This document shows positions 1 to 33,743 of a DNA stretch of 55,132 nt, piece by piece. Position 1 is the first letter of the stretch. Every line of letters begins with the position of its first letter. This DNA comes from Bacteroidota bacterium (lineage in GTDB: Bacteria > Bacteroidota > Bacteroidia > Flavobacteriales_C > GCA-002722245), in NCBI GenBank assembly GCA_026390935.1, contig JAPLEZ010000083.1, positions 1 to 55,132 on the forward strand. Reading direction: 5' to 3'. Below the pieces are notes generated by a model, which worked only from the letters and a program-made list of their open reading frames with translations, did not search any database and was not told where the DNA came from. The position numbers and the translations under genes were made by a program.

Positions 1-163
1 CTTCTTTTTCGATTTCACCAACTGAATTGTTTTCCAAATGGCCACCAGAAACAACTAGGAAATACGCGAGGGAAGGATGATTGCCGATTGCTTTAATGAT
101 TGGACATAACATCCCGAATTCAGCTCGATTACCAGTGTAAATTGCGATTTTTCTTTTTGTCAT
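1..163 (-). CDS. neuC: UDP-GlcNAc 2-epimerase (NeuC-like), N-terminal part, cut by window edge
   Basis: Only the first 54 codons are present. The translation starts MTKRKIAIYTGNRAEFG, which matches the N-terminus of hydrolysing UDP-N-acetylglucosamine 2-epimerases of the NeuC/NnaA/LegG type (the usual motif is TGTRAEYG, a sugar-nucleotide-binding loop). These enzymes release ManNAc or a related 2-epimer, the precursor condensed by NeuB. The ATG at 163-161 overlaps the stop of the upstream epimerase gene by four bases (ATGA), so translation is probably coupled. It is the last visible gene of the minus-strand polysaccharide operon and lies in the expected company of neuB. Whether the substrate is the plain GlcNAc nucleotide or a diacetylated bacillosamine (legionaminate route) cannot be told from this fragment. 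Confidence 0.85.
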   Translation of the reverse strand, partial: MTKRKIAIYTGNRAEFGMLCPIIKAIGNHPSLAYFLVVSGGHLENNSVGEIEKE

Positions 164-1062: not shown

Positions 1063-1065
1063 TGA

Positions 1066-2094: not shown

Positions 2095-2110
2095 AAATAG
2101 TATAATAACC

Positions 2111-2259
2111 TTATTTATTAACTAATTCCCAAACTATTTCAGGTGCTGTTATTGCATCACTTCTGTATAATTGTTTTATTCCTCTTTGTGTTTTTGAATC
2201 AATGATTTCAAGGCTTAGTAATCCTTTGAACTGCTGTACAATAGGGTGAAACCTGTTGC
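2111..2259 (-). pseudogene. Out-of-frame C-terminal end of the Wzt carbohydrate-binding domain
   Basis: Immediately past the A7 tract at 2260-2266, the minus-strand frame that differs from the annotated wzt frame encodes CNRFHPIVQQF, then GLLSLEIIDS, then EIVWELVNK and a stop at 2113-2111. The LLSLEIID and closing xWEL pattern is what the last strands of Wzt-type C-terminal domains look like. Adding one base to the run fuses the parts into a 422-residue protein whose stop lies only 16 bp from neuB. The short tail of the annotated frame (GFTLLYSSSKDY) has no such look. I read this as the true 3' end of wzt, disconnected by a one-base indel. Confidence 0.75.
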
Positions 2260-3378: not shown

Positions 3379-3384
3379 CTTTAT

Positions 3385-4293: not shown

Positions 4294-4303
4294 TGCTTTT
4301 AAA

Positions 4304-5251
4304 CTATCTTAAAGTGATGGACTCTGTTTTATCAACAAATACGGATTGATAAACTTTAGTTATACCCGTTTCTAAGTCAATTGTTGGTGACCAACCCATA
4401 GAGTTCAGGAATGTGCTGTCCATTAATTTTTTCATTGTGCCGTCAGGCTTTGAAGTGTTATATGTGATTTCGCCACTATAGCCCGATATTTTTTTAATGA
4501 GTTCAGAGAGTTCACCTATGCTAACGTCAGAACCGTAACCAACATTAACCAGTTTAGAGTCGTTGTAATTGTTCATTAAAAACATACAAGCATCAGCTAA
4601 ATCGTCAACATGTAAAAATTCTCTTCTTGGCTTCCCTGTTCCCCAAACTTCCATATTTGGAGTATGATTTTCTTTTGCCTCATGAAATTTTCTCAGAATA
4701 GCAGGCAGCACATGTGAGTTATTTAAATCGTAATTGTCATTCGGACCATATAAATTTGTTGGCATTGCTGAGATAAAATTACAGTTGTATTGACGTTTGT
4801 AATTTTCACAGAGTTTTAATCCTGCAATTTTTGCAATGGCATAAGGCTCGTTAGTTTGCTCTAAAACACTTGTCAGAAGGTAATCTTCTTTAATGGGCTG
4901 AGGAGCATTCTTTGGATAAATACAGGATGAGCCCAAAAACAGCAGTTTCTTCACTCCATTTACATACGATTGGTGAATTACATTGCATTCAATCATCAGA
5001 TTTTGATAAATAAAATCAGCTCTGTAAATGTTATTGGCTTGAATTCCACCCACCTTCGCGGCTGCTAAAAAAACATATTCTGGTTTTTCCTTCGAGAAAA
5101 AATTAGCAACAGCTTGCTGATTGGTTAAATCAAGTTCTTTGGAAGTGCGAACAATAATATTTGAAAACCCATCTTTTTGCAGTTTTCTTACTATAGCAGA
5201 ACCCACCGTGCCGTTGTGACCGGCCACATATATCTTGCTATCTTTCTGCAT
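4304..5251 (-). CDS. fcl: GDP-L-fucose synthase
   Basis: A 315-residue extended SDR that epimerises and reduces GDP-4-keto-6-deoxymannose to GDP-L-fucose. The NADP-binding loop is GHNGTVG (residues 11-17). The catalytic residues line up one position from those known in E. coli Fcl: Ser108, Cys110, Tyr137 and Lys141 (YAIAK), and His180. The C-terminal GKPRREFLHVDDLA block binds the nucleotide sugar. Its ATG shares one base with the gmd stop (TAATG), so the two enzymes of the pathway are translationally coupled. All active-site residues are present. Confidence 0.95.
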   Translation of the reverse strand: MQKDSKIYVAGHNGTVGSAIVRKLQKDGFSNIIVRTSKELDLTNQQAVANFFSKEKPEYVFLAAAKVGGIQANNIYRADFIYQNLMIECNVIHQSYVNGVKKLLFLGSSCIYPKNAPQPIKEDYLLTSVLEQTNEPYAIAKIAGLKLCENYKRQYNCNFISAMPTNLYGPNDNYDLNNSHVLPAILRKFHEAKENHTPNMEVWGTGKPRREFLHVDDLADACMFLMNNYNDSKLVNVGYGSDVSIGELSELIKKISGYSGEITYNTSKPDGTMKKLMDSTFLNSMGWSPTIDLETGITKVYQSVFVDKTESITLR

Positions 5252-6366
5252 TATTCACTCCAGTTCTTGATGGTGTGCCCCGCATCTTTTAATACTTTAT
5301 CCCTTGCAAATAAAGAAAGATCAGAAGCGACCATTTCTTTCACGAGCTGAGCCAAATCTCTTTTTGGTTTCCAGCCCAATTTTTTCTTTGCTTTAGAAGG
5401 ATCTCCTATAAGTAGTTCAACTTCAGTTGGTCGGAAATAACGAGGATCGATGCTAATTACTTCTTGCCCTATTTCAATGCCTGTGAATTCTGGATTTGAA
5501 ATAGAAACGATATATCCTTTTTCATCAACTCCTGATCCTTTGAATTCTAATTCAGCTCCTATTTCTTTAAACGCCATTCTGATAAAATCACGAATAGTAG
5601 TTGTCACACCGGTTGCAATAACAAAATCTTCTGGTTTGTCTTGTTGCAGCATGAGCCACATTGCCTCAATATAATCTTGAGCGTGACCCCAGTCTCTTTT
5701 AGCGTCAATATTTCCTAAAAATAATTTTTTCTGCAATCCAAAAGCAATTCTCGCTACTGCCCTGGTGATTTTTCTTGTCACAAAAGTTTCACCTCTTAAT
5801 GGTGATTCATGATTAAATAAAATTCCATTACAAGCATACATGTTATATGCTTCGCGGTAGTTAACAGTTATCCAGTACCCGTATAATTTCGCTACAGCAT
5901 AAGGAGAGCGAGGGTAAAATGGTGTGGTTTCTTTTTGAGGGACTTCTTGCACTAAGCCGTATAATTCAGATGTTGATGCCTGATAAAACCTTGTCTTTTT
6001 CTCCAAACCTAAAATTCTAATGGCTTCAAGAATTCTCATAGTTCCTAATCCATCAACATTGGCTGAATATTCAGGTTCTTCAAAACTCACCTGAACGTGT
6101 GACATCGCCCCAAGGTTGTATATTTCGTCGGGTTGCACCAACTGTATAATTCTTATGATGTTCGTAGAGTCAGACAAATCACCATAATGATTGATTAATT
6201 GAACATTCTTCTCATGCAAATCCTTATAAAGGTGATCAATACGTTGAGTATTAAATAATGAAGATCTACGTTTTATACCGTGAACTTCATATCCTTTGTT
6301 TAATAAGAATTCTGCAAGATAAGCGCCATCTTGACCTGTAATACCTGTGATTAAAGCTTTTTTCAT
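5251..6366 (-). CDS. gmd: GDP-mannose 4,6-dehydratase
   Basis: A 371-residue extended SDR, the usual length for Gmd, converting GDP-mannose to GDP-4-keto-6-deoxymannose, the substrate of the next gene. The cofactor loop TGITGQDG is at residues 7-14, the active-site STSELYG at 131-137, the YxxxK pair at Tyr156/Lys160, and the conserved [15 protein letters not shown] block near 185-199. It is the first gene of the minus-strand surface-polysaccharide operon; a possible -7 box lies at 6388-6395. Confidence 0.96.
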
Positions 6367-7150: not shown

Positions 7151-10100
7151 TTGCCATTGAAATGGTTTAAATATAAAGTATTAATTCTAGTCGCGGGCTT
7201 ATTTTTAGTTCTGCCTCATTCTTCATTTTCTCAAACAAACACTGGTACTCCAAGTGCTTCCGAATTAAAGAAAAAATATAAAGAAGAAGCAAAAAGGAAG
7301 CAACAGGAGCGGGAAAAGGAAAGCAAAGAGTATCAAAAGCAGCTTAAGGAAAAGAAAAAAATTGCAGAAGAGCGTCAGAGACAGCTTAAAAAGGAAAATC
7401 AAATTGCAGAGGAAACCCGAAGAAAAGAGCGGGAACAGGCCGACAAGAACTTGAGGGAGGAAACTAAGCGGGCAAGAGAAGCGGAATTGAAAAAAGCTCA
7501 ACAATCCACAGAAGACGAGAAAAGAAAGGCGGAACAGATCAAGCGAGATTTGGTGCAGCAGGAAAGACACCGCAAAATGTTGGAAGCGGAAAGAGTTAAA
7601 CAAGAGAAGATAAAGTCGATCCAAGAAGAAAACCTAAAAAGAGAGCAAGAGAAGGATGCGAAGGCCGCTGCTGAAAAGCAGAAATTGAGAGCCGAAGAAG
7701 AGAAGTTGCAGAAAAAACAAGCGAAAATTGAAGCGGAAGCAGCCAAGATTGCCGAAAAAAGTAAGAAGTACAATGAAAGCAAGAAAGGCAATCAGAAGGA
7801 TTTAAATGAAATGGAAAAGGAGAAAGCTGCTAAAGCTGCCAAGGAGTTAGCGGAGAAGAAGGCGGCAGAAGACAAAAAGAAAATTCAAGGCAGTGTTGAA
7901 AAAGAGCAGGAAAAGGCAAGGATTCGCGCCGAGCAGGAGGAAGTGAATAAGAAAATTTTGGAATACAAAGAGAAGGAAAGGAAGGCGCAGGAAGATATTC
8001 AAAAATTTAAGCAGGAAGCAAAAGCTCGTCGCGATAAAGAAGAGGCTGATTACAAAGCCAAACAAGCTGAGTTGGCTGCCGAGTTGCAGCGTAAAAAAGA
8101 GATTGAGGCATTCAGACAGAAAAACAAAATGAAAGAGGAAGAGCTTTCTAAAAAGTTTGAGCAGGCCAAAGCCGGACAATCAGATCAAGAGAAATTGGAA
8201 CAGTTGAAAAGAGAGCAGGAACAAAAAGAGAAAGATGCCATTGCTTTAAAAGAGAAAGAAGAATTTGAGAAAAAACTAGCGGAAGTCAAGAAAAGTGGTA
8301 ATGTTGAATTGCAAAAAGCAATGGAAGAGGCTTCAAAAGCTGAAGCAAAATTAAAAGCTGAAAGAGACAGGGAAGAAGCTCAAGTGAGGAAGTTGGAAGA
8401 AAAGCGCAAGGAGAAAGCTTTAAAAGATCAACAAGAAAAAAAGCTCAGGGAAGAAAAGTTGCAGGAGAGGGAAGGAATTTCTGAAGAAAGGGAAGAGAAA
8501 AAACTGGTAAAGGAGGATGCTGCTGGAAAAAAGAAGGCCGAATATGAAAAACGTAAGCTGGAAGTTCAGGCAGAACAAGCCAAAGAACTAGAAGAAAAAA
8601 AGAGAGCGAAGGAAGCGTTGAAAGTCCAAAAGACTTTGGAAGCAGCTGAGCGCGCCGAACAAATAAAAAAGGAGACTGTGGAGACGATGAAGTTGGAAGA
8701 AGAAGCAAAGGCATTAAAAGCTCAAGCTGAGGTCACGCGCAAAGAGGAAATCAAAAAAAGAAAACTATTGCAACAAAATGCAAAGGAAGAGCTTGCCAAA
8801 AAGAAGGCAGATGAAAAGGAACAGAAAATCAAAGACGACATTTCTTCTGGCAATAAAGACGCGGAAAAATCTTTTACTACAAGAAAGAACAATGAAAGTA
8901 AGAGTGAAAAAGAGGAAAGTCAGAAAAAGGATATAAAGGAAAGTGAAGCTGATTTGAAGTTGCGTAAAGAAATTGAAAAAAGAATGGAGGATGAGCGAAA
9001 GCAAAGGGAAAAAGATGCGATGACCGCGAAATACGATGAGAAGAAAAAGAAGCTGAAAGAAAACATCAATAAGATTAAAGAGGAGAACGAAAAAATAGCA
9101 AAGGAAGAGGGTGCAAAAACAAATTCTGAAAAGGAAAAATTAAGCAAAGAGCAAATCGCACAGCAGGAAAGGGATAGGAAAACACAGCGTCAAAAAGAGC
9201 TACTAGCTCAAAAACAAGCTGAAAAGGAACAAGCTATTCAGAAGAAGAGAGATGAAGCAATGAAACTGGCTGAAATAAAAAATGAAGCTAAAAAAGAAAG
9301 AATCCAGCTGGAAGCTAAGTCGAGAGAATTAAAAGCTCAAAAGGATAAAGAGCGTGCGCTGAAATCTGAGAAGGATGAAAAAGGTAAAACAGAAAAATTG
9401 AAAAGCGACATCGAAAATAAATCTGTTGCACAGGATGATTCAAAAAAAGAACAGGAAATTAAAGATAAAATTAAGGAGCAGGCCAAAGAAAACGTAAATA
9501 GAGCCGCTAAGGAAGAACTTCGTCAGAAGAAAATGGCCGCCAAAGTGGAAGCGTTAAAAGAAAAAGAGAAGTTGGCCACTGAAAAAGTAAAAGAAAAATT
9601 AAGCAAGGACGAAGCTAACCATAAAGCAAATCCAGAAAACACAATGAGTTTTGAGGAGCAGGTGATCAAAGACTATTATGATGGTAAAAAAATAGGACTA
9701 TGGAGAAAAGCTGAAAAAGAAAAGATATTGGCTGAGCATCGCAAAAAAATGGATAAGGAAATTCAAGCGAAGAAAGACTCTATTGCTGAAAATATTGAAA
9801 AAATGAAGCAAGATCAGGGCAAAGCGGAAGAAGCTTCTTTGAATTCGGCAAGAGATCTTAAAAATATCGACGGTAAAATTAAGGAATTGGAAGAGCAGTT
9901 GCTGGTAGAGAAAGAGGCGAAATCCTTACTTGAAAAAAATCTTGTTAAACTAAAAGAATCTGGTTTAAGTGGATCCAACATTACGCTGGAGCTAAATATT
10001 TTGCAGAAACAAGCAGAAGAAAAGGGGAAAGAAATAGAAAGAATTGAGGAGGAGTTGGAAAAGCTGAAGGGGAGAGCTTCAATGATAAAAAGAAAAACCA

Positions 10101-12913
10101 AGGAAAAAGGAAAAGAATTAAAAGCACAGAAAGACGAAATGCTGAAGAAGAGCAATGAGGAGTTGAAAAAGTTGGAAGAAAAAGCGGCTATGAATAAAAT
10201 TGAATTGCCGTCGGAAAGAAAAGAGCGATTGAAAAGGGAAAAATTGGAGCAACAGCGCTTAAAGAACGACTACAAGGTAAAAATGGCCGAACAAAAGAAA
10301 AAGCTGAAAGACGCGTCGGTTGAAGCTTCTGCAGATAAGTCTGCAGAAGAAGTGCGAGATGTTAAATCGGATAAATTGAAAAAAGCTGAGGCGGAGTTCA
10401 ATAAAATGAATGCCGAAAAGGAAAGGGATAGTATAACTCGATTAAAGTTTAGAAATGATTTGGTTCGGGATAGCTTGAAAATGGCTGATCAGTTGGAAAA
10501 ACAAACAATTGCAACTGAAAAGAAAATTGAACGTGATAAAAAACTGGCAGAGCTCCGTCAGCAGCAGCAGACTTTTGCTAAGGAAGTAGAAGAGAAAAAA
10601 TTAAAACTACAAAAAGAAAAGCAAGAGTTGAGAGCTAAAAAACAACCTATTGAGGAGAAGAAGGTGATTATAAAGGAAGAAGAAGTTGTCAAAGAGGATT
10701 CTGAATTGGCAAAAAGGACCAAGGCTTTTGAAGAAACTAAAGCTAAGGAAATAGAAAAAATTAAGAAGGAAGAAGTCGAATTTGCAGCAGCAAAAGAAAA
10801 AACCAACATCGCAGAGAAATCAGTTGTTGATAAGAAATTATCAAAAAAAGAACTCCGCATCCAGGAGTTGAAGGATCGTATCGCGCAGTTGGAAACAAAG
10901 CTTAAGGATAATTATGGTCTGAAAGAAGATCTAGAAAAACAGGCTCAAGATATTAAGGAGAGGGGTACCGTGGATGACGCCATTGAGGATGCAAAAGTCA
11001 AGCGTAAAATCGCAGAAAAAAAACTAGAGATTGATCAGCTCTCAACGCAGCTAAAAGCTTTAAGAGATGAGTTGTCTAAAGAAGGTACTTCAGCAGTAGC
11101 TGATAAAGGAAAGACAGGTGCTTCAAAAGAATTAAATGTTGAAGAGCAGGCTCAGGCGCAAGCAAACGCTAAGGCTAAAAAAATTGCCGAAAAGCAAAAA
11201 CAAGCTGAAGAGGAAAGGGCCAGATTGGAAAAATTAAAATTAGCGAAGGAAAAAACAAAACAAGAGATTGAAGACGAGCAAAAGGCAATGGCCGAAAAAT
11301 CGGCAGCTAAGGATGCGGAATTTGAAAAAGAGAAAAAACAATTAGAAGAAGAGCGCAACGAGCTTTTAATTAAGGAGGAAAAAGAACAGAAACTTAAAGA
11401 AGAGCAAGATAAAATCAAGCAATTTGAAGAAAAATCGGCACTGGATAAGGCAGCTGCCATTGCACTAGCTAAAAAAGCTGCCGATTTAAAAGAACTAAAA
11501 AAGAAAGAAGAGTTGGATAAAATGAAGTTGGCAGCCACTGCTAAAGAGAGAGAAATTGCTGCTGAAAAATATCGTAGGGAAACAACTATCATGATTGCTG
11601 AAAAGGAAAGAGCTATACGTGATTCATTGCGATTAGTCTACCAAAATGTTGATAAGACCCACACCAATAATAAAGTTGCCTTTGACACTCTGGCGCAAAA
11701 GAAAGCCCAGGAAAATAAAAAATTACAAGATGAATATACATTGCTTAAAATCAAAAAAGAGCAAGAGCTTGCGCAAAAGAAAAAAGATCTTGATCTGAAA
11801 AAATCCAACGAGGTGAAAAAGCAAGTGGTAAAAGAAGTGAATGGAGAACAAGCGAAAAAAGCTCTTGAAGCAAAACTCAAGTACGAGGCTGAAGTAAGAA
11901 ACAACCAAAAGTTAGCAGCTAAAACATCTCAATTGAAAGATGAAGCTCGTCGTAAAGAGCTTGCCGACGCACAAAAAAGCAAAATTTATGAAAGGGAAAA
12001 AATGCTGGCGGCTAAGCAAAAGGCTCGCGAGGATTCGTTGCGATTGGTGAAAATCGCCTTTGACGACAAGCAAAAACCAATACAAGAGCAAATCACAAAG
12101 AAAATAACACAGCGTACAATTCTAGAAGATGATGTTGCCCGATTGAAAGAAAAAGAATTGGCAATTCTTCAAAATTACGTGAAGGAAAATGCGGCTTCAA
12201 AACAAATGAATTACGAGGCTACAAACACTGTTGGTATTGAAAAAATCAAGAAAACAGCACAAGTAGTTTTGCAGGAGAAAAAGGCTTTGGAAACTAAATT
12301 GCAGGCAAAAGAAAACTATTTGGTGCGTTTAGGTAAACAAGAGGAGTTGAATAAGATTCGACAAGAATTGAATCTCTTGCAATTTAAGCTCGATAATATG
12401 AATGCGAAAGCAGACACAAATGCTTTAAATGCTGTTTTGGTAGTGCAACATCAGAATATTGTGCAGTCAATGGAAAAAATAAAAAGTGAAATTTCTGTTT
12501 TAGAGGATGACATTAAGAAGAAAGAAGTTGAATACAGCAAAGAGCTGCAGCTCGCTAAACAAGAAGAGGATAAACAGAAAAAGGTAGAAGCGCAAAAGAA
12601 GAATTCGGGTCGTTCAATGAAGGATTTGAATTCACAATTGGAAACCTATCAAAAGCTTATGAAAGACGCTGCAACACCTGTAGAAAAGGAAAAGATTAGA
12701 AGGCAGATTGCAGAATTGGAAAAAAGTTATCCTGAAGGAGTATACGAGGAGTTGATTACTGAAAGCAACAGAACCATCAAAAAAGTTGTTGTAAGTAAAG
12801 GCGGGAAGGTAGTAATCTATAAAATGATAGTTTACGGTTGGGGTGGGGCTTTCTATTTTAAAAATGAAGTGAATGTTACTAAACAAGTGTTCGATAAAGA
12901 AACGTCCTATTAA
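7151..12913 (+). CDS. Giant exported coiled-coil protein of unknown function (1920 aa)
   Basis: A TTG start gives a signal peptide (LVAGLFLVLPHSSFS, cleaved about residue 28). There is no in-frame ATG nearby, and a TAA lies 15 bases upstream. The rest, to about residue 1850, is an almost unbroken Lys/Glu/Ala/Gln-rich helix with heptad-like spacing, predicted to form a very long coiled coil outside the cytoplasm. DSLRL/DSLK-type motifs recur (near residues 1103, 1490 and 1630). The last 60 residues differ: a small beta-rich module with VYGWGGAFYFKNEVN. There is no membrane anchor, no lipobox and no recognised T9SS domain. The coding strand is extremely purine-rich. cinA begins at the very next base. 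I do not recognise a function; a periplasmic or surface fibre or tether is a guess. Confidence 0.85.
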   Translation: MPLKWFKYKVLILVAGLFLVLPHSSFSQTNTGTPSASELKKKYKEEAKRKQQEREKESKEYQKQLKEKKKIAEERQRQLKKENQIAEETRRKEREQADKNLREETKRAREAELKKAQQSTEDEKRKAEQIKRDLVQQERHRKMLEAERVKQEKIKSIQEENLKREQEKDAKAAAEKQKLRAEEEKLQKKQAKIEAEAAKIAEKSKKYNESKKGNQKDLNEMEKEKAAKAAKELAEKKAAEDKKKIQGSVEKEQEKARIRAEQEEVNKKILEYKEKERKAQEDIQKFKQEAKARRDKEEADYKAKQAELAAELQRKKEIEAFRQKNKMKEEELSKKFEQAKAGQSDQEKLEQLKREQEQKEKDAIALKEKEEFEKKLAEVKKSGNVELQKAMEEASKAEAKLKAERDREEAQVRKLEEKRKEKALKDQQEKKLREEKLQEREGISEEREEKKLVKEDAAGKKKAEYEKRKLEVQAEQAKELEEKKRAKEALKVQKTLEAAERAEQIKKETVETMKLEEEAKALKAQAEVTRKEEIKKRKLLQQNAKEELAKKKADEKEQKIKDDISSGNKDAEKSFTTRKNNESKSEKEESQKKDIKESEADLKLRKEIEKRMEDERKQREKDAMTAKYDEKKKKLKENINKIKEENEKIAKEEGAKTNSEKEKLSKEQIAQQERDRKTQRQKELLAQKQAEKEQAIQKKRDEAMKLAEIKNEAKKERIQLEAKSRELKAQKDKERALKSEKDEKGKTEKLKSDIENKSVAQDDSKKEQEIKDKIKEQAKENVNRAAKEELRQKKMAAKVEALKEKEKLATEKVKEKLSKDEANHKANPENTMSFEEQVIKDYYDGKKIGLWRKAEKEKILAEHRKKMDKEIQAKKDSIAENIEKMKQDQGKAEEASLNSARDLKNIDGKIKELEEQLLVEKEAKSLLEKNLVKLKESGLSGSNITLELNILQKQAEEKGKEIERIEEELEKLKGRASMIKRKTKEKGKELKAQKDEMLKKSNEELKKLEEKAAMNKIELPSERKERLKREKLEQQRLKNDYKVKMAEQKKKLKDASVEASADKSAEEVRDVKSDKLKKAEAEFNKMNAEKERDSITRLKFRNDLVRDSLKMADQLEKQTIATEKKIERDKKLAELRQQQQTFAKEVEEKKLKLQKEKQELRAKKQPIEEKKVIIKEEEVVKEDSELAKRTKAFEETKAKEIEKIKKEEVEFAAAKEKTNIAEKSVVDKKLSKKELRIQELKDRIAQLETKLKDNYGLKEDLEKQAQDIKERGTVDDAIEDAKVKRKIAEKKLEIDQLSTQLKALRDELSKEGTSAVADKGKTGASKELNVEEQAQAQANAKAKKIAEKQKQAEEERARLEKLKLAKEKTKQEIEDEQKAMAEKSAAKDAEFEKEKKQLEEERNELLIKEEKEQKLKEEQDKIKQFEEKSALDKAAAIALAKKAADLKELKKKEELDKMKLAATAKEREIAAEKYRRETTIMIAEKERAIRDSLRLVYQNVDKTHTNNKVAFDTLAQKKAQENKKLQDEYTLLKIKKEQELAQKKKDLDLKKSNEVKKQVVKEVNGEQAKKALEAKLKYEAEVRNNQKLAAKTSQLKDEARRKELADAQKSKIYEREKMLAAKQKAREDSLRLVKIAFDDKQKPIQEQITKKITQRTILEDDVARLKEKELAILQNYVKENAASKQMNYEATNTVGIEKIKKTAQVVLQEKKALETKLQAKENYLVRLGKQEELNKIRQELNLLQFKLDNMNAKADTNALNAVLVVQHQNIVQSMEKIKSEISVLEDDIKKKEVEYSKELQLAKQEEDKQKKVEAQKKNSGRSMKDLNSQLETYQKLMKDAATPVEKEKIRRQIAELEKSYPEGVYEELITESNRTIKKVVVSKGGKVVIYKMIVYGWGGAFYFKNEVNVTKQVFDKETSY

Positions 12914-20708: not shown

Positions 20709-22988
20709 TTGAAGAAAAACCTTTCCATATTATTTTTGTTTTTCATCAGTGTTTCTTACGCACAGAAGCATACCATTAGTGGGTATGTTTATGATCAAAA
20801 AACTCGCGAAACCGTTATTGGAGCTTTTGTTGTTGAGCAAAGTGGTGTTGGTTCAACGCATACTAATTCCTATGGTTTTTACTCCCTTACACTTAAAAAT
20901 GATTCCGCCAATCTTACCGTTAATGTTCAAGGATACGAACTTCAGAGTATTTCTATAATCAGCAGAAAGGATACTTTAGTCAATATTTATTTGAATCCGG
21001 TTATCATACAAACCGAAGAAATAAAGATCACTAAAATTAAAAGGAACGATGCTGAAAAGGCAAGTGCTTCTACAATGAGTCAGTTGAAAATTGATCCCAA
21101 AAAATTAAATTCATTGCCTTCTTTCGCTGGAGAAGCGGATCCATTGAAAGTGTTGCAGCTGATGCCAGGGGTGCAGCGCGGTCAGGAGGGAACCAACGGT
21201 ATGTTTATCAGGGGCGGCACAGTGGATCAGAATTTAATTTTATTGGATGACGCACCAGTTTACAATGCCGGACATTTATTGGGTTTTTTCTCTGTATTTA
21301 ATAACGATGCATTAAAGGATGTGAAACTCGTGAAAGGTGGATTTGATGCTGAATATGGAGGAAGATTGTCCTCTGTTGTAGACATAAGGATGGATGATGG
21401 TAACATGAAACAACATCAAGTGGAAGGCAGTGTTGGTTTACTTTCTTCTCGATTAACACTGGAAGGCCCGATAAAAAAGGATACGATATCCTATATGATC
21501 GGTGTTCGTCGCTCGTACTTGGATCAACTTTCTAAGCTATTGAATTTCCCTGTGCCTTATTATTTCTACGATCTCAACGGAAAAATAAATTTCAAGGTAA
21601 ATGCAAAAACTAGAATTTACCTAAGTGGTTATTTCGGAAATGATATTCTCAATATCGATAAAACCATGCGGGATCAATACCGAGATATTGCTGGTTTCGG
21701 ATTTAATTTACTGAATTCAACTGCAACATTGAGGGTGAATAGGCAACATACATCAAAGCTGTTTGCGAATTATTCATTGATTCACACTCAGTTTGGTTAT
21801 GATGTTAAAGGCGATTTTAGTGGTAATTCAATTTTAGTTCGTTCTACAATTAGTGATTGGGGATTAAAAGCCGATTACAGTTATTATTATAGCAATCAAC
21901 ACACCATCAAGTTTGGGGTTTTTAGCGTGCAGCACGTGTTTACGCCTAATTTTATTAGCACTAGCGGAGAAATTACGGAGTTTATTAAAAGCAGAGATCC
22001 GGCACCCATTTTCATGATGGAGTATGCATCATATATTTCCGATCAGTATAAAGTAAATGAAAACCTGACTCTAAATTTGGGATTACGACTTTCTGGTGCT
22101 TTAGTGCAAACTACTTCCTATTCAGGATTTGAGCCTCGTTTTTCGAGTAGTTACGGTTTAAGTAAAAATCTTTTCCTCAAAGCGAGCTATTCTCGAATGC
22201 GTCAGTACATGCACTTGGTCTCCAGTTCTACAGTGAGTTTACCAACCGATTTATGGTATCCTGTAACAAAGGCTGTGAAGCCGCTGGTTTCGGACCAATA
22301 TGCAGCGGGATTTGAATTTGCTCTACCAAAGCTACGAAGCAAATTAACGATGGAAGGGTATTATAAAAAAATGAGCAATCTAATTGAATACAAAGAGGGA
22401 GCTCAAATTTTGCTAAACGATAATTTTGAAAAAGAATTACTCACAGGAACTGGCGAAGCTTACGGAATGGAATTTTTGCTTCAACGTTTTGTAGGTAAGT
22501 GGAGTGGTTGGGTAGGTTATACTTTGTCGTGGTCCACGCGCCACTTTGATGGATTGAATGGAGGAAAAACATATTTTGCCAAGTTCGACAGGCGTCACGA
22601 TTTATCTTTTGTATTGAATTATCAACCCAATGCCAAGTGGCAGTTTTCTGCAGTTTGGGTGTATATGACAGGAGCAAGGTTTACTCCACAAATCGGACAA
22701 TATTTTATGCCTAACGCGTCTCTCACTAATGTGGATATTTTGCCCATTTACACAGCGCGAAATGCAGTGACTATGTCGCCAACACATCGTTTGGATTTGA
22801 GTACAACAAGATCCTCTGATCGCAGTAAAAAATTTAAATACGATTTGGTTTTCGGAGTTTACAATGTATACAATAGAGCCAGTCCATTTTTAGTGGAGAT
22901 TGCGCGATCATCAAATGGATCCTTAGTTTATCAGCAACCGGGTCTCTTTGGAATTGTACCATATTTTGCTTTTAATTTTAAAATATGA
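20709..22988 (+). CDS. TonB-dependent outer-membrane receptor with carboxypeptidase-regulatory N-domain
   Basis: 759 residues. A signal peptide (NLSILFLFFISVSYA) is followed by a CarboxypepD_reg-like domain (about 20-105, ISGYVYDQKTRETVIGA), a plug domain (about 130-230, MFIRGGTVDQNLILLDDAPVY) and a beta-barrel to the end. It imports a ligand across the outer membrane using TonB energy. The start is TTG; an ATG 11 bases upstream stops after four codons. A DUF4249 lipoprotein gene overlaps its end by 4 bp. This pairing is common in Bacteroidota and distinct from SusC/SusD; its ligands are largely unknown. Confidence 0.93.
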   Translation: MKKNLSILFLFFISVSYAQKHTISGYVYDQKTRETVIGAFVVEQSGVGSTHTNSYGFYSLTLKNDSANLTVNVQGYELQSISIISRKDTLVNIYLNPVIIQTEEIKITKIKRNDAEKASASTMSQLKIDPKKLNSLPSFAGEADPLKVLQLMPGVQRGQEGTNGMFIRGGTVDQNLILLDDAPVYNAGHLLGFFSVFNNDALKDVKLVKGGFDAEYGGRLSSVVDIRMDDGNMKQHQVEGSVGLLSSRLTLEGPIKKDTISYMIGVRRSYLDQLSKLLNFPVPYYFYDLNGKINFKVNAKTRIYLSGYFGNDILNIDKTMRDQYRDIAGFGFNLLNSTATLRVNRQHTSKLFANYSLIHTQFGYDVKGDFSGNSILVRSTISDWGLKADYSYYYSNQHTIKFGVFSVQHVFTPNFISTSGEITEFIKSRDPAPIFMMEYASYISDQYKVNENLTLNLGLRLSGALVQTTSYSGFEPRFSSSYGLSKNLFLKASYSRMRQYMHLVSSSTVSLPTDLWYPVTKAVKPLVSDQYAAGFEFALPKLRSKLTMEGYYKKMSNLIEYKEGAQILLNDNFEKELLTGTGEAYGMEFLLQRFVGKWSGWVGYTLSWSTRHFDGLNGGKTYFAKFDRRHDLSFVLNYQPNAKWQFSAVWVYMTGARFTPQIGQYFMPNASLTNVDILPIYTARNAVTMSPTHRLDLSTTRSSDRSKKFKYDLVFGVYNVYNRASPFLVEIARSSNGSLVYQQPGLFGIVPYFAFNFKI

Positions 22989-23869
22989 AGTCGAAAATTT
23001 ACATATTGATTTTTTCCCTAGTGCTGATGCTGTGTGCATGCAGGCCAAAGCCTTTGGATATTGCTGTTCAGCCGCAATCCCCAAAATTAATTATAGCCTC
23101 ACAAATTATTCCTTCTAATGTAATGGCCGTTTTAGTCACCCGCAGTTTTTCTGTTTTGGAAGAAGGAACTTTTGTAGAAGGGACAAGTGAGATTTCACCC
23201 GGATTTATTGATAAAATCATTGTGCAAGATGCTTTGGTGACTGTGAGTTATGATGGGATCATTGATACTTTGTACAGTGTAGATACTATTCCTGGTGTGT
23301 ATGTGAGTGCAAAAATATTGCAGGTTCCTCATCAGAATTATGTTTTACATGTTTATGATCCGAAATCAGATGAATCTGTTTCGGCGAGTGCGCAAATGTT
23401 GTCCGCTGTGAAAATTGACACGATTTACCCAATTGGAAAAACAGACTCAACCGTTTCTTTAAAATTCAGATTTACTGATTTGCCTGGACAAAACTGGTAT
23501 TTATTCAACGTGTATAAAGCAAGTAAGCAATCGGGTGTTGCTAACCTTGATGTTAATACCACGCCTTTTGCCGTGGGAGAAAATCAATTGTTACAATCGC
23601 AGTTGATTACCGATTTGGTGTACAACAAAAATCTTATTGAAATTACTACAACAGTCCCAGGTGTATATCCTACCGATACAATAGGAATTACTTTCGCAAA
23701 TATTACGGAGGGCCACTTCTTGTTTTTGAGCGCTCAAAGTGGAACAGGTGATTTGTTTGGTCAGTTTTTTCATGAACCAGTTAATATTCCTACCAATGTT
23801 ATCAATGGCTTTGGTTACTTCAGTGCTTATGATCCCGATGTTAAGATCATCGATTTAAATAAATACTAG
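22985..23869 (+). CDS. DUF4249 family lipoprotein, partner of the TonB receptor
   Basis: 294 residues with a lipoprotein signal (IFSLVLMLCACRP; Cys19 in LCAC). The mature part has the DUF4249 pattern: a beta-rich start with LIIASQIIPSNVMAVLVTRSFS, a second block around IIVQDALVTVSYDG and the central FTDLPGQNWYLFNVYK. The ATG overlaps the stop of the TonB receptor (ATGA), so the pair is translationally coupled and probably forms one outer-membrane complex, by analogy with SusD-type lipoproteins. No substrate is established for the family as far as I know. Confidence 0.85.
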   Translation: MKSKIYILIFSLVLMLCACRPKPLDIAVQPQSPKLIIASQIIPSNVMAVLVTRSFSVLEEGTFVEGTSEISPGFIDKIIVQDALVTVSYDGIIDTLYSVDTIPGVYVSAKILQVPHQNYVLHVYDPKSDESVSASAQMLSAVKIDTIYPIGKTDSTVSLKFRFTDLPGQNWYLFNVYKASKQSGVANLDVNTTPFAVGENQLLQSQLITDLVYNKNLIEITTTVPGVYPTDTIGITFANITEGHFLFLSAQSGTGDLFGQFFHEPVNIPTNVINGFGYFSAYDPDVKIIDLNKY

Positions 23870-24005: not shown

Positions 24006-27000
24006 ATGATGAATAAAGTTTACACGAAAATTCTGTTTGCAACTAATGTCATAGGTTTGTATTTATTTGGTGTTGCCTTGGCAGTTTTATTTTCCATTAA
24101 TAGTGCATCAGCTCAGCAGGTTTTTCCTGGAGGAGGAGCTGGAAGCTATAATTTAACAAAGTGGCCCGCTCCACCTTATACGCTTGTTGCTCCTGTTAAT
24201 CAGAAGAATTGGTATTTGCCAATGGCCAATGGCGCGGCAGGATTGGCAAGAAAAGGTGCCACTTATAAAGGTCCATTTCAGGCCAATAACTGGTGGAATT
24301 CGGCTTTTTGGAGAACTACTTCGCGTGAAAACCCTCCTGAGGCCGGTGATGTGACCTCTAATCATATGTATCCATATCCTTTAATGATGCAGATGGCGGG
24401 AGATGGAATGCAGTTTGGTTATCGTACTATTGATCAGCAAGCTGAAAATCCTGATCCCAATCAAAACCCACCAGCGGAAAAAGCGGGTGGAAATGCGCGA
24501 CTCTCTACTTGTGCATTTGATTTGAAATTGAATTTTGCCAATCCTGCAGATTATAATGCGCAAGCCATTAAGGCTACTAGCGCCGTAATTGCGGATTATG
24601 GAGATTGGCACGTGAAGTTTGAGCAACATTTTGGACCCAATACAACTCTGTACACCACCGCTGCCGCTGGAAGTCCTTTTGTGTTTTTTGATTATCAATC
24701 CACAGCAGGATTGGTTCCTACCTTCGATAGAGTATGGGGAGGAGCGCAGTTTAGAATTTTAGCGGTGAATAACAATTCTATTTTAGTTAATATTTTCCCT
24801 AGTGGCTTGCCCTCCAATCCGAAAGGCAATCCTTTGAATCCCGAAGGTTTTTATGCTTTTTATTTTCCGGAAGGAACACAATTGGCTGGTAACGATGGGG
24901 CCTTTAGAGCCATTGCCAATTGGGGCAAAAACAATGAGCTTACTCCATTAAGAATTAAATTGCCTGACGGTAAAACGCAATTTACTCTGGCCATAATGCC
25001 TGATAGCACTGTAAGTACCTTTCATCTGTATGAGCCTTATGCCTATTGCGCCATCACTGATACGCGATTTACATATAGTTATGATGTATCCAAATCAAAA
25101 GTAACCAACACGTTTACGGTTACTACTACTCCTTATGATAATCATGGAGATTCAGGAACCATAACGGCGCTATACCGTCATCAATATCTTTATTCACCTG
25201 AGGTTACTACTCATGGTATAGGTAAATCTTATTTTGGTGCACATGGTGAAATGAAAATTATTAAAGGTCATGGATTCAGAGATATAATGACCTATTATGG
25301 TAACTGTCCCGAACTAGGCAAGGCAGCCAAAAATTTTAATAAAGCCAAAATTTCTCAACTCATTACCAATCTTTTTGCCTTTTCTCAGTTTACTGATTAC
25401 AAAGGGGCCAACTACGATGATTATAATTTTTTTAGAGCCACAGCATTTTGGGGGCAATCAGCAGAAATTGCGCATCAAATAGGTCGCGATGATTTAAGGG
25501 ATAAGTTGCTCGATCAGGCAAAAATTATTTTGGAAGACTTTATGACTTCTCCCAACAATGACACTTTGTATACTGTTTATGATCCTCAGTTTAATTTCAT
25601 GGTCACTTTACCCAACGGTTTTTTCTCCGCTGTGGGACAATACGATTATCATTTTCTGGCGTGTTACATGATTTATTCAGCTGCGATGATTGGTAAATTT
25701 GAGTTGCAACGCAGCGGTAATTTAGATTGGGTCAATAAATACAAACCAATGATAGATCTTATGGTAAGAAATATCAACGATTGGAACAGGGATATGGTTG
25801 CACCTTCTAATCCCAACGATCCATGGTTTCCGTACTTGCGTTATTTTGATCCATATGCAGGCCATTCGTGGTTTTCACATTCTACAGTGGCACAGGAGGC
25901 AGTGAGTGAAGCGGTTCTTTTTGCTACAGGCGCTATGATGTGGGGAGATCTAACGGATAATATACCTATGCGTGATATGGGAACAATGTTATACGTTACT
26001 GAAAGTGAAGCTGGCAGACAGTATTGGTTTGATTACGATAATGTTGGTTTGAATAAAGGTCCGTTTGCCCCCGATTATCCAAGTCGCCATGCTGGCATTG
26101 TTTGGGAAGATGGTTCCAGCTACGGTAATTTCTTTGATCCTCATCACTATGCCATTATGCGCGGTGCTCTAATGCCGATAACCGGTTCTTCTGTTTGGTT
26201 GGGTAGTGATCGAGCTGCGGTGAAAGGCAATATTGATGATCTTTTGGCAAAAGAAGCATTGGATTATATTACGCAACCAACTTGGACGGGAGAAGTATTG
26301 GCATATGCAGCTTTAGATGATGCAAATGGTGCAAGGAAAAAATACGATAATAATATTTTTAATGGCTTACCGCCTAAACAATCTTTGGATGGATTGGTTT
26401 ATCCTGTTATACACGAACATTGGATGGCTACATTGGACAGCGTAGGGTATTACGACGGAAAGCAAGTGCAGGCTGATTTTCCTTTTTTTAGTGTTTTCAG
26501 AAAAGATACTTGCAACACATGGATTAGGCATTACATGATGTACAACGCGCCTGGTCCGAACCATCCAGCTCGAACCGTAAAATTCACCGATGGTACTTGT
26601 TGGCATTTGCCGCAGGATACTTTGATTGTGTATAAATTAATGGGCCCCGATTCCGTTAAAAGTATTACTGCTACAGGTGGTGCGTGTGAAAATGATGTAA
26701 TCAATATTGATGTAGATGCTGATATTTGTCCAATGCGTGATCCTAGTATGTACTATGAATATTCGAAGGACAAGGTGCATTGGAATACTTTATACAATGT
26801 AAAAACAGCAAGCGATTCTTTGCATGTAAAATTTACGCCAACAACTGCAGGAACATATTATTTCAGAGCCATTATGTTAGGAGAAGATGTTCCTGGTTTG
26901 CTATGTCCTTTGAGAGATACAACCGACAATATAGCGGAGGTCACGGTTTCATCGTGTTGTCCACTTAAAATTGATACAGTAAAAATAACCAAAGCAACTT

Positions 27001-28892
27001 GCAGTGGTCGCGCTGATGGTAAAATTATTATTGAAGCCAGCAACGGTGCAGCGCCATATCAATATTCTATTGATAATGGAATTACATTAACTGCCAGCAA
27101 TAACTTCAACAATTTAAAAGCCGATACTTTTTATGTGTATGTAAAAGATGCAAACAATTGCGTGAAGCGCCGTGAAGTAATTGTAGGTGAAGCTTCATCA
27201 ATCAATGTTGTAAAAAAAGATAGCGTAAATGTGAAGTGCTTTGGAGATACAAGCGCCTCTGCAACAATAGAAGTTTCTGGAGGAACTGCTCCTTATACCT
27301 ATTTATGGGATGATGCTGCTTTGCAAAGTACCCCAACTGCTCATGGATTAACTGGAAGGTTATATATAGTTAAAGTTAGCGATCAAAATGGCTGTTTCAT
27401 CAATGTTAGCTTTGATTTACCTGAACCTGCTCAGTTGAATATTTCTTCTATCGACATTACTAAAGTAAATTGTTTTGGCGATTCTACTGGAGCGTTGAAA
27501 GCCAATGTAGCAGGAGGAATTTCACCATATGAATTTTTGTGGAGCAATGCAGATACTTTGGATAGCATCACCTCTTTGCCGATAGGAGTTTATAAATTGC
27601 AAGTGAGCGATGCTAAAGGTTGTAAAGCCATTTCTCAGGCTGAAGTGAAGTCGCCTGCCTTGCTCGAATTGAAAATTGATAAATCGAGCGACAATTGTTT
27701 TGGTGGAAATAATCAAGGTGCATTAAGCGCTAAGGTTAGTGGTGGCGTTGCAGCATATACTTATCAGTGGGATGTTCCTGGAAGCGGAAATGTGTCTTCA
27801 TTGAATAATCTACCCAGTGGTGAATATCACCTTATTGTAACTGATGGCAATGGTTGTAGTGTTAGTGATAGCACAACTATTTTACAATCGGCGCCTTTGG
27901 ATTACACTGTTAATGTTGTAAATCCAAGTTGTGGCAATGCCGATGGAACTGCAAGCATTGTTGTAAATGTTGGAGGAAGTGTGCCGTATGTTTATCAGTG
28001 GGATGCTCGAGCAGCCAACCAAACTACAGCAACCGCCAATAATCTCAATACCGGGTGGTATCTTTTTACGATCACAGATGGAGCTGGATGCTCAAAAACA
28101 GATTCAATTGAATTGCAAAATCTTAATGGAGTTGCTTTCGTTGATAAGGAAATTACCAATCCAACTTGTTTTGGAAAATGTGATGGATCGCTTATGGCAG
28201 TGGCTGCTGGCGGCACGCGACCTTACAAATACCAATGGGATTCAATAGCATCTGTTGATTCATTTGCCACCGGACTGTGTGCTGGAAATTACCTACTTAC
28301 TGTTACTGATGTTAATAAATGCAGTGATGTAATTAGTTTCGTTCTCGACGATCAGGCAAAAAATCCTCCTTTTGCTAATTTTTCTTTTTCTCCGCAAGAA
28401 GTCAGTCTGCTGGAACCAACGGTGTATTTTACCAATTTGTCAACAGATGCTTCAATATTTAAGTGGACTTTTGGAAATGGTGATAGTTCGTTTGCTACGC
28501 AACCTGTGTACACTTATGCCGACACTGGATTTTATTCTGTTTGTTTGAGAGCGAGCAATGAGAACAATTGCTTTATGGATACCTGTGGACGAGTTCAGGT
28601 TGAAGGCATATCAGTGTTTTATGTGCCCAATGCTTTTACCCCTGGTTCTGATGGGAAAAATGATTTGTTTATGCCTGTAACCAGCGGACTTGATCCGGAT
28701 TCTTATCAGTTAAATATTTTCAATCGTTGGGGTGAATTATTTTTCTCTACCAATGATTTGAATAAAGGGTGGGATGGAACACGCAATGGTCGACCAGTGC
28801 AGGTGGATGTGTATGTTTGGAAAATTGATTTTAAGGAAAAAGATTCAAAGAAACTTCATTCAAAAATAGGACATGTGACTTTGCTGAGGTAA
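24006..28892 (+). CDS. T9SS-secreted divergent GH81-type beta-1,3-glucanase with SprB repeats
   Basis: 1628 residues. A signal peptide ends about residue 37 (INSASAQQ). Residues about 40-870 resemble GH81 endo-beta-1,3-glucanases: QYDYHFLACYMIYSAA (acid candidate Asp547), then DPYAGHSWFSHSTVAQEAVSE with the paired glutamates Glu631 and Glu635 four apart, then YVTESEAGRQYWF. Next come an Ig-like segment (about 890-985), six SprB-type repeats (about 990-1450), a PKD domain (about 1455-1530, TYADTGFYSVCLRAS) and a gliding-associated type B T9SS sorting domain (1537-1628, YVPNAFTPGSDGKNDLF). It is thus secreted through T9SS and should act on a glucan outside the cell. Against the usual DHHFHYG motif the second motif histidine is Leu551, so activity is uncertain. 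Confidence 0.85.
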   Translation: MMNKVYTKILFATNVIGLYLFGVALAVLFSINSASAQQVFPGGGAGSYNLTKWPAPPYTLVAPVNQKNWYLPMANGAAGLARKGATYKGPFQANNWWNSAFWRTTSRENPPEAGDVTSNHMYPYPLMMQMAGDGMQFGYRTIDQQAENPDPNQNPPAEKAGGNARLSTCAFDLKLNFANPADYNAQAIKATSAVIADYGDWHVKFEQHFGPNTTLYTTAAAGSPFVFFDYQSTAGLVPTFDRVWGGAQFRILAVNNNSILVNIFPSGLPSNPKGNPLNPEGFYAFYFPEGTQLAGNDGAFRAIANWGKNNELTPLRIKLPDGKTQFTLAIMPDSTVSTFHLYEPYAYCAITDTRFTYSYDVSKSKVTNTFTVTTTPYDNHGDSGTITALYRHQYLYSPEVTTHGIGKSYFGAHGEMKIIKGHGFRDIMTYYGNCPELGKAAKNFNKAKISQLITNLFAFSQFTDYKGANYDDYNFFRATAFWGQSAEIAHQIGRDDLRDKLLDQAKIILEDFMTSPNNDTLYTVYDPQFNFMVTLPNGFFSAVGQYDYHFLACYMIYSAAMIGKFELQRSGNLDWVNKYKPMIDLMVRNINDWNRDMVAPSNPNDPWFPYLRYFDPYAGHSWFSHSTVAQEAVSEAVLFATGAMMWGDLTDNIPMRDMGTMLYVTESEAGRQYWFDYDNVGLNKGPFAPDYPSRHAGIVWEDGSSYGNFFDPHHYAIMRGALMPITGSSVWLGSDRAAVKGNIDDLLAKEALDYITQPTWTGEVLAYAALDDANGARKKYDNNIFNGLPPKQSLDGLVYPVIHEHWMATLDSVGYYDGKQVQADFPFFSVFRKDTCNTWIRHYMMYNAPGPNHPARTVKFTDGTCWHLPQDTLIVYKLMGPDSVKSITATGGACENDVINIDVDADICPMRDPSMYYEYSKDKVHWNTLYNVKTASDSLHVKFTPTTAGTYYFRAIMLGEDVPGLLCPLRDTTDNIAEVTVSSCCPLKIDTVKITKATCSGRADGKIIIEASNGAAPYQYSIDNGITLTASNNFNNLKADTFYVYVKDANNCVKRREVIVGEASSINVVKKDSVNVKCFGDTSASATIEVSGGTAPYTYLWDDAALQSTPTAHGLTGRLYIVKVSDQNGCFINVSFDLPEPAQLNISSIDITKVNCFGDSTGALKANVAGGISPYEFLWSNADTLDSITSLPIGVYKLQVSDAKGCKAISQAEVKSPALLELKIDKSSDNCFGGNNQGALSAKVSGGVAAYTYQWDVPGSGNVSSLNNLPSGEYHLIVTDGNGCSVSDSTTILQSAPLDYTVNVVNPSCGNADGTASIVVNVGGSVPYVYQWDARAANQTTATANNLNTGWYLFTITDGAGCSKTDSIELQNLNGVAFVDKEITNPTCFGKCDGSLMAVAAGGTRPYKYQWDSIASVDSFATGLCAGNYLLTVTDVNKCSDVISFVLDDQAKNPPFANFSFSPQEVSLLEPTVYFTNLSTDASIFKWTFGNGDSSFATQPVYTYADTGFYSVCLRASNENNCFMDTCGRVQVEGISVFYVPNAFTPGSDGKNDLFMPVTSGLDPDSYQLNIFNRWGELFFSTNDLNKGWDGTRNGRPVQVDVYVWKIDFKEKDSKKLHSKIGHVTLLR
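26979..28360 (+). repeat. Six SprB-type repeats coded in tandem
   Basis: Units of roughly 70-80 codons, each opening with a cysteine motif (CSGRADG, CFGDTSA, CFGDSTG, CFGGNNQG, CGNADG, CFGKCDG) and followed by a GG-x-x-P-Y-x-Y-x-W block. At DNA level they have diverged, so this is an old protein-level repeat, not a recent tandem expansion. Such repeats are typical of long surface adhesins in gliding Bacteroidota. Confidence 0.85.
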
Positions 28893-28999: not shown

Positions 29000-29533
29000 T
29001 TAAGGTCTTAACAATTCCAGCACTTCCACTAAACTCAAAAGGAGTTTCATCTTTTCTGCATCACCACCATTTTCAATGCATTCGTTCACTGTGGAAATAC
29101 AATCTGTAATTTCATCGTCATTTACATTTCCTTCCATATTTTCAACTACAGTGAGCACCTCTAGTGTCGTCATGAAATTTTCCTTGCAGGCTAAGTCGAT
29201 TAAAAAACTAATATATTCTTCAGAAGGAATAGAAGATTGCCAAAGCGCAGAAACCAATACATCACGATGACCAGCAGAAATGTCTTTTTTTAAGTAATCA
29301 ATAATGATTTCTCCAGCTTTAGAAGCTTTCAATTCAAATAAAATTCCTTTGGCTTCATCGTAAACAGTATCGTCTTCTGTTTGCAGGAGGGCTTCAATAA
29401 TGCCGGGTAGCACATGAATAGTGCCGCGCTGCTTGGCGTCTTGCAGGGCTTTTAACACCAATCCGTTGTTCTTTGCTTTTAGATTTTGCAGGATATTCTG
29501 CAAAAATTTATTTTCTTTTTTTTCTTCGCTCAT
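29000..29533 (-). CDS. HEAT-repeat-like protein, unknown function
   Basis: 177 residues, all-helical by appearance and acidic. It has repeated helix pairs with conserved leucines, e.g. RGTIHVLPGIIEALLQTED and GEIIIDYLKKDISAGHRDVL, in the style of HEAT/armadillo scaffolds. There is no signal peptide, so it is cytoplasmic, and there are no catalytic motifs. It is divergent from the OsmC gene with only 26 bp between the start codons, so their promoters must overlap or lie within coding sequence. Function is not recognised. Confidence 0.75.
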   Translation of the reverse strand: MSEEKKENKFLQNILQNLKAKNNGLVLKALQDAKQRGTIHVLPGIIEALLQTEDDTVYDEAKGILFELKASKAGEIIIDYLKKDISAGHRDVLVSALWQSSIPSEEYISFLIDLACKENFMTTLEVLTVVENMEGNVNDDEITDCISTVNECIENGGDAEKMKLLLSLVEVLELLRP

Positions 29534-31785: not shown

Positions 31786-31817
31786 GAAAAAGCCCGGAAA
31801 TTTCCGGGCTTTTTTTG
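31786..31817 (+). terminator. Rho-independent terminator after the cupredoxin gene
   Basis: AGCCCGGAAATTTCCGGGCT is a perfect 20-base palindrome (31791-31810), flanked by A and T runs, starting about 20 bp after the stop codon and ending in seven T. Confidence 0.93.
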
Positions 31818-31853
31818 TGTAGTAATTTACTATCTTCGCACCTCATTTTATTT

Positions 31854-33743
31854 ATGCCTGATAATTGTAAATACGTATTTGATTTCGACAGCACTCTAAC
31901 TCAGGTAGAAGCACTGGATATACTTGCGGAAATCTCTCTGAAAAATCATCCGAAAAAAGATGAATTGATTCAAAAGATCATTGACATTACGAATCAAGGG
32001 ATTGATGGCACAATATCTTTTACTGAAGGGTTGAGTCAGCGTTTGGATGTGCTCAATGCGCGTGAAGAGCATTTGCCTTTGCTAGTAAAAAAGTTAAAAG
32101 CACAAATTTCAAAATCCATTTTCAGGAACAAGTCTTTTTTTAAAGAACAGTCCAAAAATATTTATGTGATGTCGGCAGGTTTTAAGGAATTTATTGTTCC
32201 TATTGTTGCTGAATTGAACATTCCTGCCGAACGTGTTTTTGCCAATACATTTGAATTTGAAAATGGAAATATTGTTGGCTTCGATAAAATGAATCCATTG
32301 TCGAAACACAATGGTAAAATCGAGTGCCTCAAAAACATGAACTTAAAAGGCACTGTTTTTATGATTGGTGATGGATACAGCGATTATGTTACTCGTAAAG
32401 CTGGCATCGCCACCAAATTTTTTGCCTATACCGAAAATGTAAGTCGCAAAAACATCTTGGATGTTGCCGATCATATCACCCCGAGTTTTGAAGAATTTTT
32501 ATATTTAAATAAATTACCCATGGCGATTTCTTATCCTAAAAACAGAATTAAAGTATTGTTGCTGGAAAACATTCACCCAAATGCTTTTAACATCTTTACA
32601 GAAGAAGGCTACACCGTTGAAACGATGAAAGGTGCTTTGGATGAAGCTGAGTTGTGCAAAAAAATTAAGGATGTTCATATTTTGGGAATTCGTTCCAAAA
32701 CAAATGTTACTGCAAAAGTTTTGGAGCATGCCAATAAGTTGATGTCGGTTGGTGCTTTTTGTATTGGAACGAAGCAAATTGATCTTGAAGCTTGCAAGGA
32801 AAAAGGAGTTGTAGCTTTTAACGCTCCATTCAGTAACACACGTTCAGTGGTGGAATTGGCGCTAGGTGAGATCATTATGTTGATGCGTCGTGTTTTTGAG
32901 CGCAGCACCGAATTGCATGCAGGCAAATGGAACAAAACTGCAACAGGCAGTTATGAAATAAGAAATAAAACCTTGGGTATTGTTGGATACGGAAATATTG
33001 GATCTCAGCTTTCTGTTGTTGCTGAAGCATTGGGGATGAAGGTTGTTTTTTATGACGCAGTAGAAAAATTGGCTTTAGGAAATGCACAAAAATGCAATAC
33101 ATTAAATGAATTGCTGAAAAAATCAGATGTGGTTTCTTTGCATATTGATGATAGCTCGGAAAATAAAAATTTCTTTGGCGACAAGGAATTCAAGGCTATG
33201 AAAGACGGAGCTGCTTTTGTCAACCTGAGCAGAGGATTTGTTGTAGATATCGCCTCTTTGGTAAAACACTTGAAAAGCGGAAAAATTTCTGGAGCTGGTG
33301 TAGATGTTTTTCCAAAGGAACCTAAAAACAATGATGAAGCATTTATCTCCGAATTGATTGGATTGCCGAATGTAATTTTAACTCCACACGTTGGTGGAAG
33401 TACACAAGAAGCACAAGTGAATATTGCTGAGTTTGTGCCTGCCCGAATCATTGATTACGTTAACAAAGGAATTACTTATAAGAGCGTTAATTTTCCAAAT
33501 ATTCGCTTGCAAGAGCAAGGAAGTTCGCACCGTTTCCTCCACGTTCACGAAAACGTGCCGGGTATCATGGCGAAGGTGAATGGTATCTTGTCAAAGCAAG
33601 GATTGAATATTGTTGGGCAATACCTCAAAACCGATGAAAAAATAGGGTACCTCATTACCGACGTGGATAAAAACTACAAGAAGGAATTGATAGAGGAACT
33701 TAAAAATATCAAGCACACTATTAAGTTCAGAGTGCTTTATTAA
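31854..33743 (+). CDS. serA: Fused phosphoserine phosphatase-like / D-3-phosphoglycerate dehydrogenase
   Basis: 629 residues carrying two steps of serine synthesis. Residues about 1-210 form a HAD phosphatase of the SerB type: DFDST with nucleophile Asp10 and Asp12, Ser107 (MSAGF) and GDGYSD (172-177). Residues about 225-540 form 3-phosphoglycerate dehydrogenase: NAD loop GIVGYGNIG (375-383) and catalytic Arg460, Glu489 and His512. An ACT-like regulatory domain (about 555-629, HVHENVPGIMAKVNGIL) ends the protein and may bind serine. The middle enzyme, SerC, is absent here. The start at 31854 (MPDNCKYVFDF) is preferred over an upstream in-frame ATG that would add 13 residues. A -7-like TATCTTCG lies at 31831-31838. 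Confidence 0.92.
   Translation: MPDNCKYVFDFDSTLTQVEALDILAEISLKNHPKKDELIQKIIDITNQGIDGTISFTEGLSQRLDVLNAREEHLPLLVKKLKAQISKSIFRNKSFFKEQSKNIYVMSAGFKEFIVPIVAELNIPAERVFANTFEFENGNIVGFDKMNPLSKHNGKIECLKNMNLKGTVFMIGDGYSDYVTRKAGIATKFFAYTENVSRKNILDVADHITPSFEEFLYLNKLPMAISYPKNRIKVLLLENIHPNAFNIFTEEGYTVETMKGALDEAELCKKIKDVHILGIRSKTNVTAKVLEHANKLMSVGAFCIGTKQIDLEACKEKGVVAFNAPFSNTRSVVELALGEIIMLMRRVFERSTELHAGKWNKTATGSYEIRNKTLGIVGYGNIGSQLSVVAEALGMKVVFYDAVEKLALGNAQKCNTLNELLKKSDVVSLHIDDSSENKNFFGDKEFKAMKDGAAFVNLSRGFVVDIASLVKHLKSGKISGAGVDVFPKEPKNNDEAFISELIGLPNVILTPHVGGSTQEAQVNIAEFVPARIIDYVNKGITYKSVNFPNIRLQEQGSSHRFLHVHENVPGIMAKVNGILSKQGLNIVGQYLKTDEKIGYLITDVDKNYKKELIEELKNIKHTIKFRVLY

Follow-up and report, generated by a model that had tools for sequence, protein, structure and literature searches.

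A divergent GH81 domain with an altered acid loop on a SprB-repeat protein with a type B sorting domain in a Bacteroidota genome

The locus and its neighbours

The window, by which is meant the whole stretch of DNA analysed, comprises positions 1-55,132 of JAPLEZ010000083.1 (55,132 nucleotides; GCA_026390935.1, Bacteroidota bacterium, Flavobacteriales_C), and its coordinates are used unless stated otherwise. The gene of interest lies on the forward strand at 24006..28892, starts with ATG, and encodes 1628 amino acids in an intact frame. A probable Sec signal peptide (approximately residues 1-37, 24006..24116), read by eye from a hydrophobic stretch ending in SASAQ, is followed by a complete GH81 module (residues 34-870, 24105..26615) with an N-terminal beta part and an alpha-helical barrel, supported by structural modelling, superposition, and a sequence match to the PDB. 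A linker of approximately residues 871-992 (26616..26981), with no Pfam match above cut-off, leads to six SprB repeats (26982..28247; singly 26982-27080, 27219-27320, 27453-27557, 27684-27773, 27906-28004, and 28149-28247), a PKD domain (residues 1475-1522, 28428..28571), and a type IX secretion system (T9SS) type B sorting domain (CHU_C/TIGR04131, 28623..28889). Pfam E-values were 4e-26 for the GH81 C-terminal domain, 5e-53 for the six SprB repeats, 3e-7 for PKD_4, and 4e-13 for CHU_C, and the NCBIfam model TIGR04131 matched at 1e-14; these matches bear out the domain list of an initial annotation made from the letters of the DNA, which had named GH81, six SprB repeats, a PKD, and a gliding-type sorting domain.

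Upstream stand a TonB-dependent receptor and a DUF4249 protein (20709..23869, forward strand), which are conserved neighbours: the order HTH, TonB receptor, DUF4249, GH81 is common to the window and the sister species. Two other congeners have the HTH, receptor, and DUF4249 genes arranged likewise but lack a GH81 gene after them, which indicates that the GH81 gene was gained or lost at this locus and that the TonB receptor is not a dedicated GH81 partner; a dedicated polysaccharide utilisation locus was rejected on the same grounds. In one of these congeners (L141) the next gene, on the opposite strand, is only a few bases away, and its first residues resemble those of the PorP/SprF gene behind GH81 in the sister species. 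That PorP/SprF gene was considered as a dedicated partner and rejected, since its closest relative in the window's genome (74% identity) lies on another contig and the linkage is thus not conserved. A PorP/SprF-like gene (G004 C3:41420-42375, within L140) gave two partial matches that overlap, of which one contains an internal TGA, and is possibly broken or frameshifted.

The next gene downstream of GH81 encodes a 177-amino acid protein without a convincing Pfam match (29000-29533, reverse strand), and here synteny with the sister species is lost. Elsewhere in the window, one open reading frame (31815-33743, forward) combines a HAD phosphatase-like domain, a D-2-hydroxyacid dehydrogenase, and an ACT domain, and resembles a serine-synthesis fusion of SerB with SerA; a protein of 1920 amino acids (7151-12913, forward) has no Pfam match at 1e-5; and a surface-sugar cluster (160-6366, reverse) holds NeuB, a GDP-mannose dehydratase, two further epimerase-family genes, and an ABC exporter.

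Fold and catalytic carboxylates

The Pfam model for the C-terminal part of GH81 (PF17652) scores 92.5 bits on the window protein (cut-off 25.6), while the N-terminal model (PF03639) was not reached. In the PDB, the closest sequence is that of CtLam81A from Clostridium thermocellum (6fop, E 7.5e-64), a match that excludes a chance likeness to GH81, and BhGH81 is second. A profile built from 72 bacterial relatives recovers bacterial and Rhizomucor miehei GH81 structures and also served as the input for an AlphaFold2 model of the module (mean pLDDT 85.2, pTM 0.91). Superposition of this model, a check that the initial annotation had proposed, gave Z 41.9 with BhGH81 (5upm; 719 residues, 2.1 Å) and Z 40.3 with CtLam81A (697 residues, 1.9 Å). 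Scores with R. miehei GH81 were 27.6-28.9, and the first non-GH81 fold scored 14.4. The GH81 fold is assigned on this gap despite the PF03639 miss, and the predicted structure, with its N-terminal beta domain and (alpha/alpha)6 barrel, matches BhGH81 and CtLam81A over nearly the full chain.

In an alignment of 96 GH81 rows, representing 92 distinct genes (L005/L016, L006/L021, L008/L019, and L009/L025 were each fetched twice), strict invariance is limited to eight columns: Y473, D547, G619, E631, S634, E635, Y673, and G814. The Asp547 and Glu631/Glu635 pattern that the initial annotation had recognised is therefore kept. The two glutamates lie in QEAVSEA (residues 630-636, 25893..25913), and Glu631 aligns with the glutamate mutated in crystal structures of CtLam81A (E515A in 6fop) and BhGH81 (to Gln in 5upi). 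We take Asp547 to be the general acid and Glu631 the base, as is general for GH81. By its sequence the domain is nevertheless diverged: of 100 columns with at least 90% conservation among other GH81s it keeps 67, while reference members keep at least 84. CtLam81A shares the fold, the Asp, and both Glu with the window domain at 27% identity in superposition; however, it has the loop NDHHFHYGY with its His, and the crystallised chain has neither SprB repeats nor a type B tail. BhGH81 (BH0236 of Bacillus halodurans; 5t4a, 5upi, and others), for which laminaro-oligosaccharide complexes have been solved, likewise has the same fold and conserved carboxylates, but is 23% identical and has the His. 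BhGH81 carries CBM6 and CBM56 (PMC9609564), where the window protein has SprB repeats instead.

The acid loop

The loop around Asp547 reads YDYHFLACY (residues 546-554, 25641..25667), and the 96-row alignment confirmed NDHHFHYGY as the usual family sequence, as initially annotated with correct residue numbers for the loop, D547, L551, E631, and E635. The loop departs from the usual one at five of nine positions, including N546Y, H548Y, H551L, and G553C, and approximately five residues are absent between the SWFS segment and Gln630 in comparison with canonical GH81s, as they are in a paralogue type described below (C31). Leu551 presumably corresponds to His522 of yeast Eng2, which is reportedly essential in that enzyme. 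A clean match to characterised GH81 with all catalytic residues aligned, which the initial annotation had set against its own reading, is found for the three carboxylates and not for this histidine.

The column of Leu551 holds His in 86 rows, Gly in four, Val in two, and Leu, Met, Thr, and Cys in one each. The Gly rows are paralogues of one type (C48) from the window's genus, and the two Val rows are one gene. On a tree of 34 sequences with the motif columns left out, the pattern requires at least two separate changes, so the His four residues past the Asp was not counted as defining GH81. The Gly-bearing paralogues keep 89-91 of the 100 conserved columns, and loss of the His alone is thus no sign of a dead enzyme. 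No assayed GH81 member without the His was found in the literature. Two very distant GH81-like proteins of another genome (L013 and L015 of G002) have the acid loops NDKNLTYGY and TDHDMCYGY and still keep all three catalytic carboxylates.

The change at this position could in principle be an assembly or sequencing error or the product of gene decay, the genome being a draft of 155 contigs. This is highly improbable: the frame is open over the whole gene, constraint is still visible, and independent relatives have Val (the syntenic gene of another species) and Met (a Cytophagales protein) at the same column.

Clade, paralogues, and rate of change

The window domain groups with L016 (the gene also listed as L005, from the congeneric species Flavobacteriales nzgw150) and L017 (from a Cytophagales MAG) with support of 100/99 in the 34-sequence tree. 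This subclade is nested in an 11-member, Bacteroidota-only GH81 clade (support 100/100) on a long branch from canonical GH81s, and a further tree placed the window domain similarly. At 18 columns for which other GH81s show at least 90% conservation, all three members depart from the family, and they have L, V, or M for the His. Among 395 genomes drawn from the class, matches at E 1e-40 came from the window's genus only, and 395 genomes drawn from the phylum gave, outside the genus, matches of 31-36% identity over the C-terminal two thirds only; the subclade is therefore rare. Neither relatives in viral contigs nor a characterised GH81 within the clade was found.

The initial annotation had offered a new subfamily with altered activity or a glucan-binding adhesin derived from an enzyme. 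The clade, the subclade, and the shared departures support the subfamily, which may or may not differ in activity; the adhesin, a GH81 domain that no longer catalyses and now serves as the glucan-binding head of a SprB-like surface protein, is weakened and seems unlikely. The lost His, the heavily changed acid loop, and the 18 altered columns would suit such a protein, but the fold is kept and all three catalytic carboxylates persist along the long branch, and the His is Gly in a separate lineage that keeps about 90 of the 100 conserved columns.

The window's genome has three GH81 genes, and the two paralogues (C31, L007; C48, L011) resemble the window protein in joining GH81 to a T9SS type B tail and in keeping the carboxylates. 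They differ in having no detected SprB repeats and in evolving more slowly; the C31 protein is 36% identical to the window protein, with the loop VDAHFHVGY, and the C48 protein 31%, with NDHHFGYGY. Comparison of the window's genome with the sister species gave GH81 domain identities of 59% for the window gene, 92% for the C31 copy, and 78% for the C48 copy, and 72-97% for five flanking genes. This faster change could mean relaxed constraint and is a further point for the adhesin. Against the syntenic relative, however, 76 of 99 family-conserved columns are identical (77%), compared to 416 of 751 others (55%), which places the constraint on the family core. The dN/dS for this pair is approximately 0.13, a rough value since synonymous sites are saturated. 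The sequence pattern fits continued selection on an enzyme core with fast change elsewhere, and the syntenic relative keeps the six SprB repeats, the PKD, the CHU_C domain, and all carboxylates.

A second reading retains hydrolysis and moves the main substrate off plain β-1,3-glucan, for example to a glucan that is branched, modified, or of mixed linkage. The carboxylates are unchanged and the differences concentrate in the acid loop and in the loop preceding Glu631, and the near-canonical C48 protein in the same genome (90 of 100 conserved columns) would free the window copy to specialise. This too is improbable: PMC9609564 reports no activity other than endo-β-1,3-glucanase for GH81 members, and the sole genomic hint of a substrate belongs to a paralogue. 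The window's genome has eight GH18 matches, of which one, with a T9SS tail, stands two genes downstream of the C31 GH81 gene; a congener's relative of this copy (L021) also has GH18 nearby, and these neighbours hint at fungal-wall substrates for the C31 copy. On C31 (L096, 6561-13668), the neighbours of the GH81 paralogue include a chitinase-like GH18 gene whose T9SS tail is of type A, and a CBM6 phosphoesterase.

Export and the SprB stalk

The window protein has the C-terminal TIGR04131/CHU_C domain of a T9SS type B substrate, and SprA and PorP/SprF-type genes are found in its genome. Searches of that genome gave SprA at 5e-135, 65 TIGR04131 matches, 51 SprB-repeat matches, and 15 PorP/SprF-type matches; neither a type B tail nor SprB repeats are unusual there. 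PorP-like proteins bind type B proteins for surface anchorage (PMC9143113), and type B substrates have cognate shuttles (PMC12618676). Members of the wider Bacteroidota clade (L018, L020, L024, and L095) lack SprB repeats and may have a type A tail, which makes the SprB stalk an addition in the window's lineage; the contig of L017 ends before its C-terminus.

The six repeats are a feature of SprB-like proteins, and as the repeat is named for a surface adhesin they also speak for a binding role. SprB, the gliding adhesin of Flavobacterium johnsoniae, shares with the window protein its SprB repeats and a type B sorting domain, and is bound by SprF (PMC9143113); however, it has a mass of 669 kDa and is not known as a glycoside hydrolase, while the window protein has only six repeats. 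A SprB repeat is also found on a proven hydrolase, the T9SS-tailed GH107 fucoidanase Fhf1 of Formosa haliotis, which has been shown to be active (PMC7698502), and with this precedent the SprB architecture is no evidence against catalysis. Fhf1 differs in its catalytic family, its single SprB repeat, and its type A sorting domain.

Proposed function

Taken from sequence and model, the window protein is probably an active, surface-anchored endo-β-1,3-glucanase of GH81 with modified subsites. The altered acid loop is then no evidence for a new kind of protein and most likely marks a branch of a familiar enzyme. The signal peptide would direct the protein to the periplasm, and the type B domain would pass it to the type IX secretion system for anchoring to the outer membrane by way of a PorP/SprF-type protein, with the SprB repeats and PKD as a putative stalk. 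The GH81 domain would bind β-1,3-glucan of fungal, oomycete, or algal origin and cleave it with inversion, as is the mechanism of GH81, Asp547 being the likely general acid and Glu631 the likely base, with Glu635 assisting. Contacts in the subsites are probably altered by the acid-loop changes and by the shortening of the loop that precedes Glu631, so that preferences for chain length, linkage, or activity may differ from those of studied members. A broader proposal is more doubtful and is put forward tentatively: a Bacteroidota-specific GH81 subfamily, its acid loop rebuilt without the His and its members surface-anchored on a SprB-type stalk, in which either the substrate or the mode of attack has changed or only binding is left.

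Only three bacterial GH81 members had been studied before PsLam81A (PMC9609564). In the window protein, SprB repeats and a type B tail carry a glycan-degrading domain. With His, Gly, Val, Met, or Leu at the variable position, and with three GH81 paralogues in a single genome, this protein and its relatives offer a natural test of the need for a histidine near the catalytic acid.
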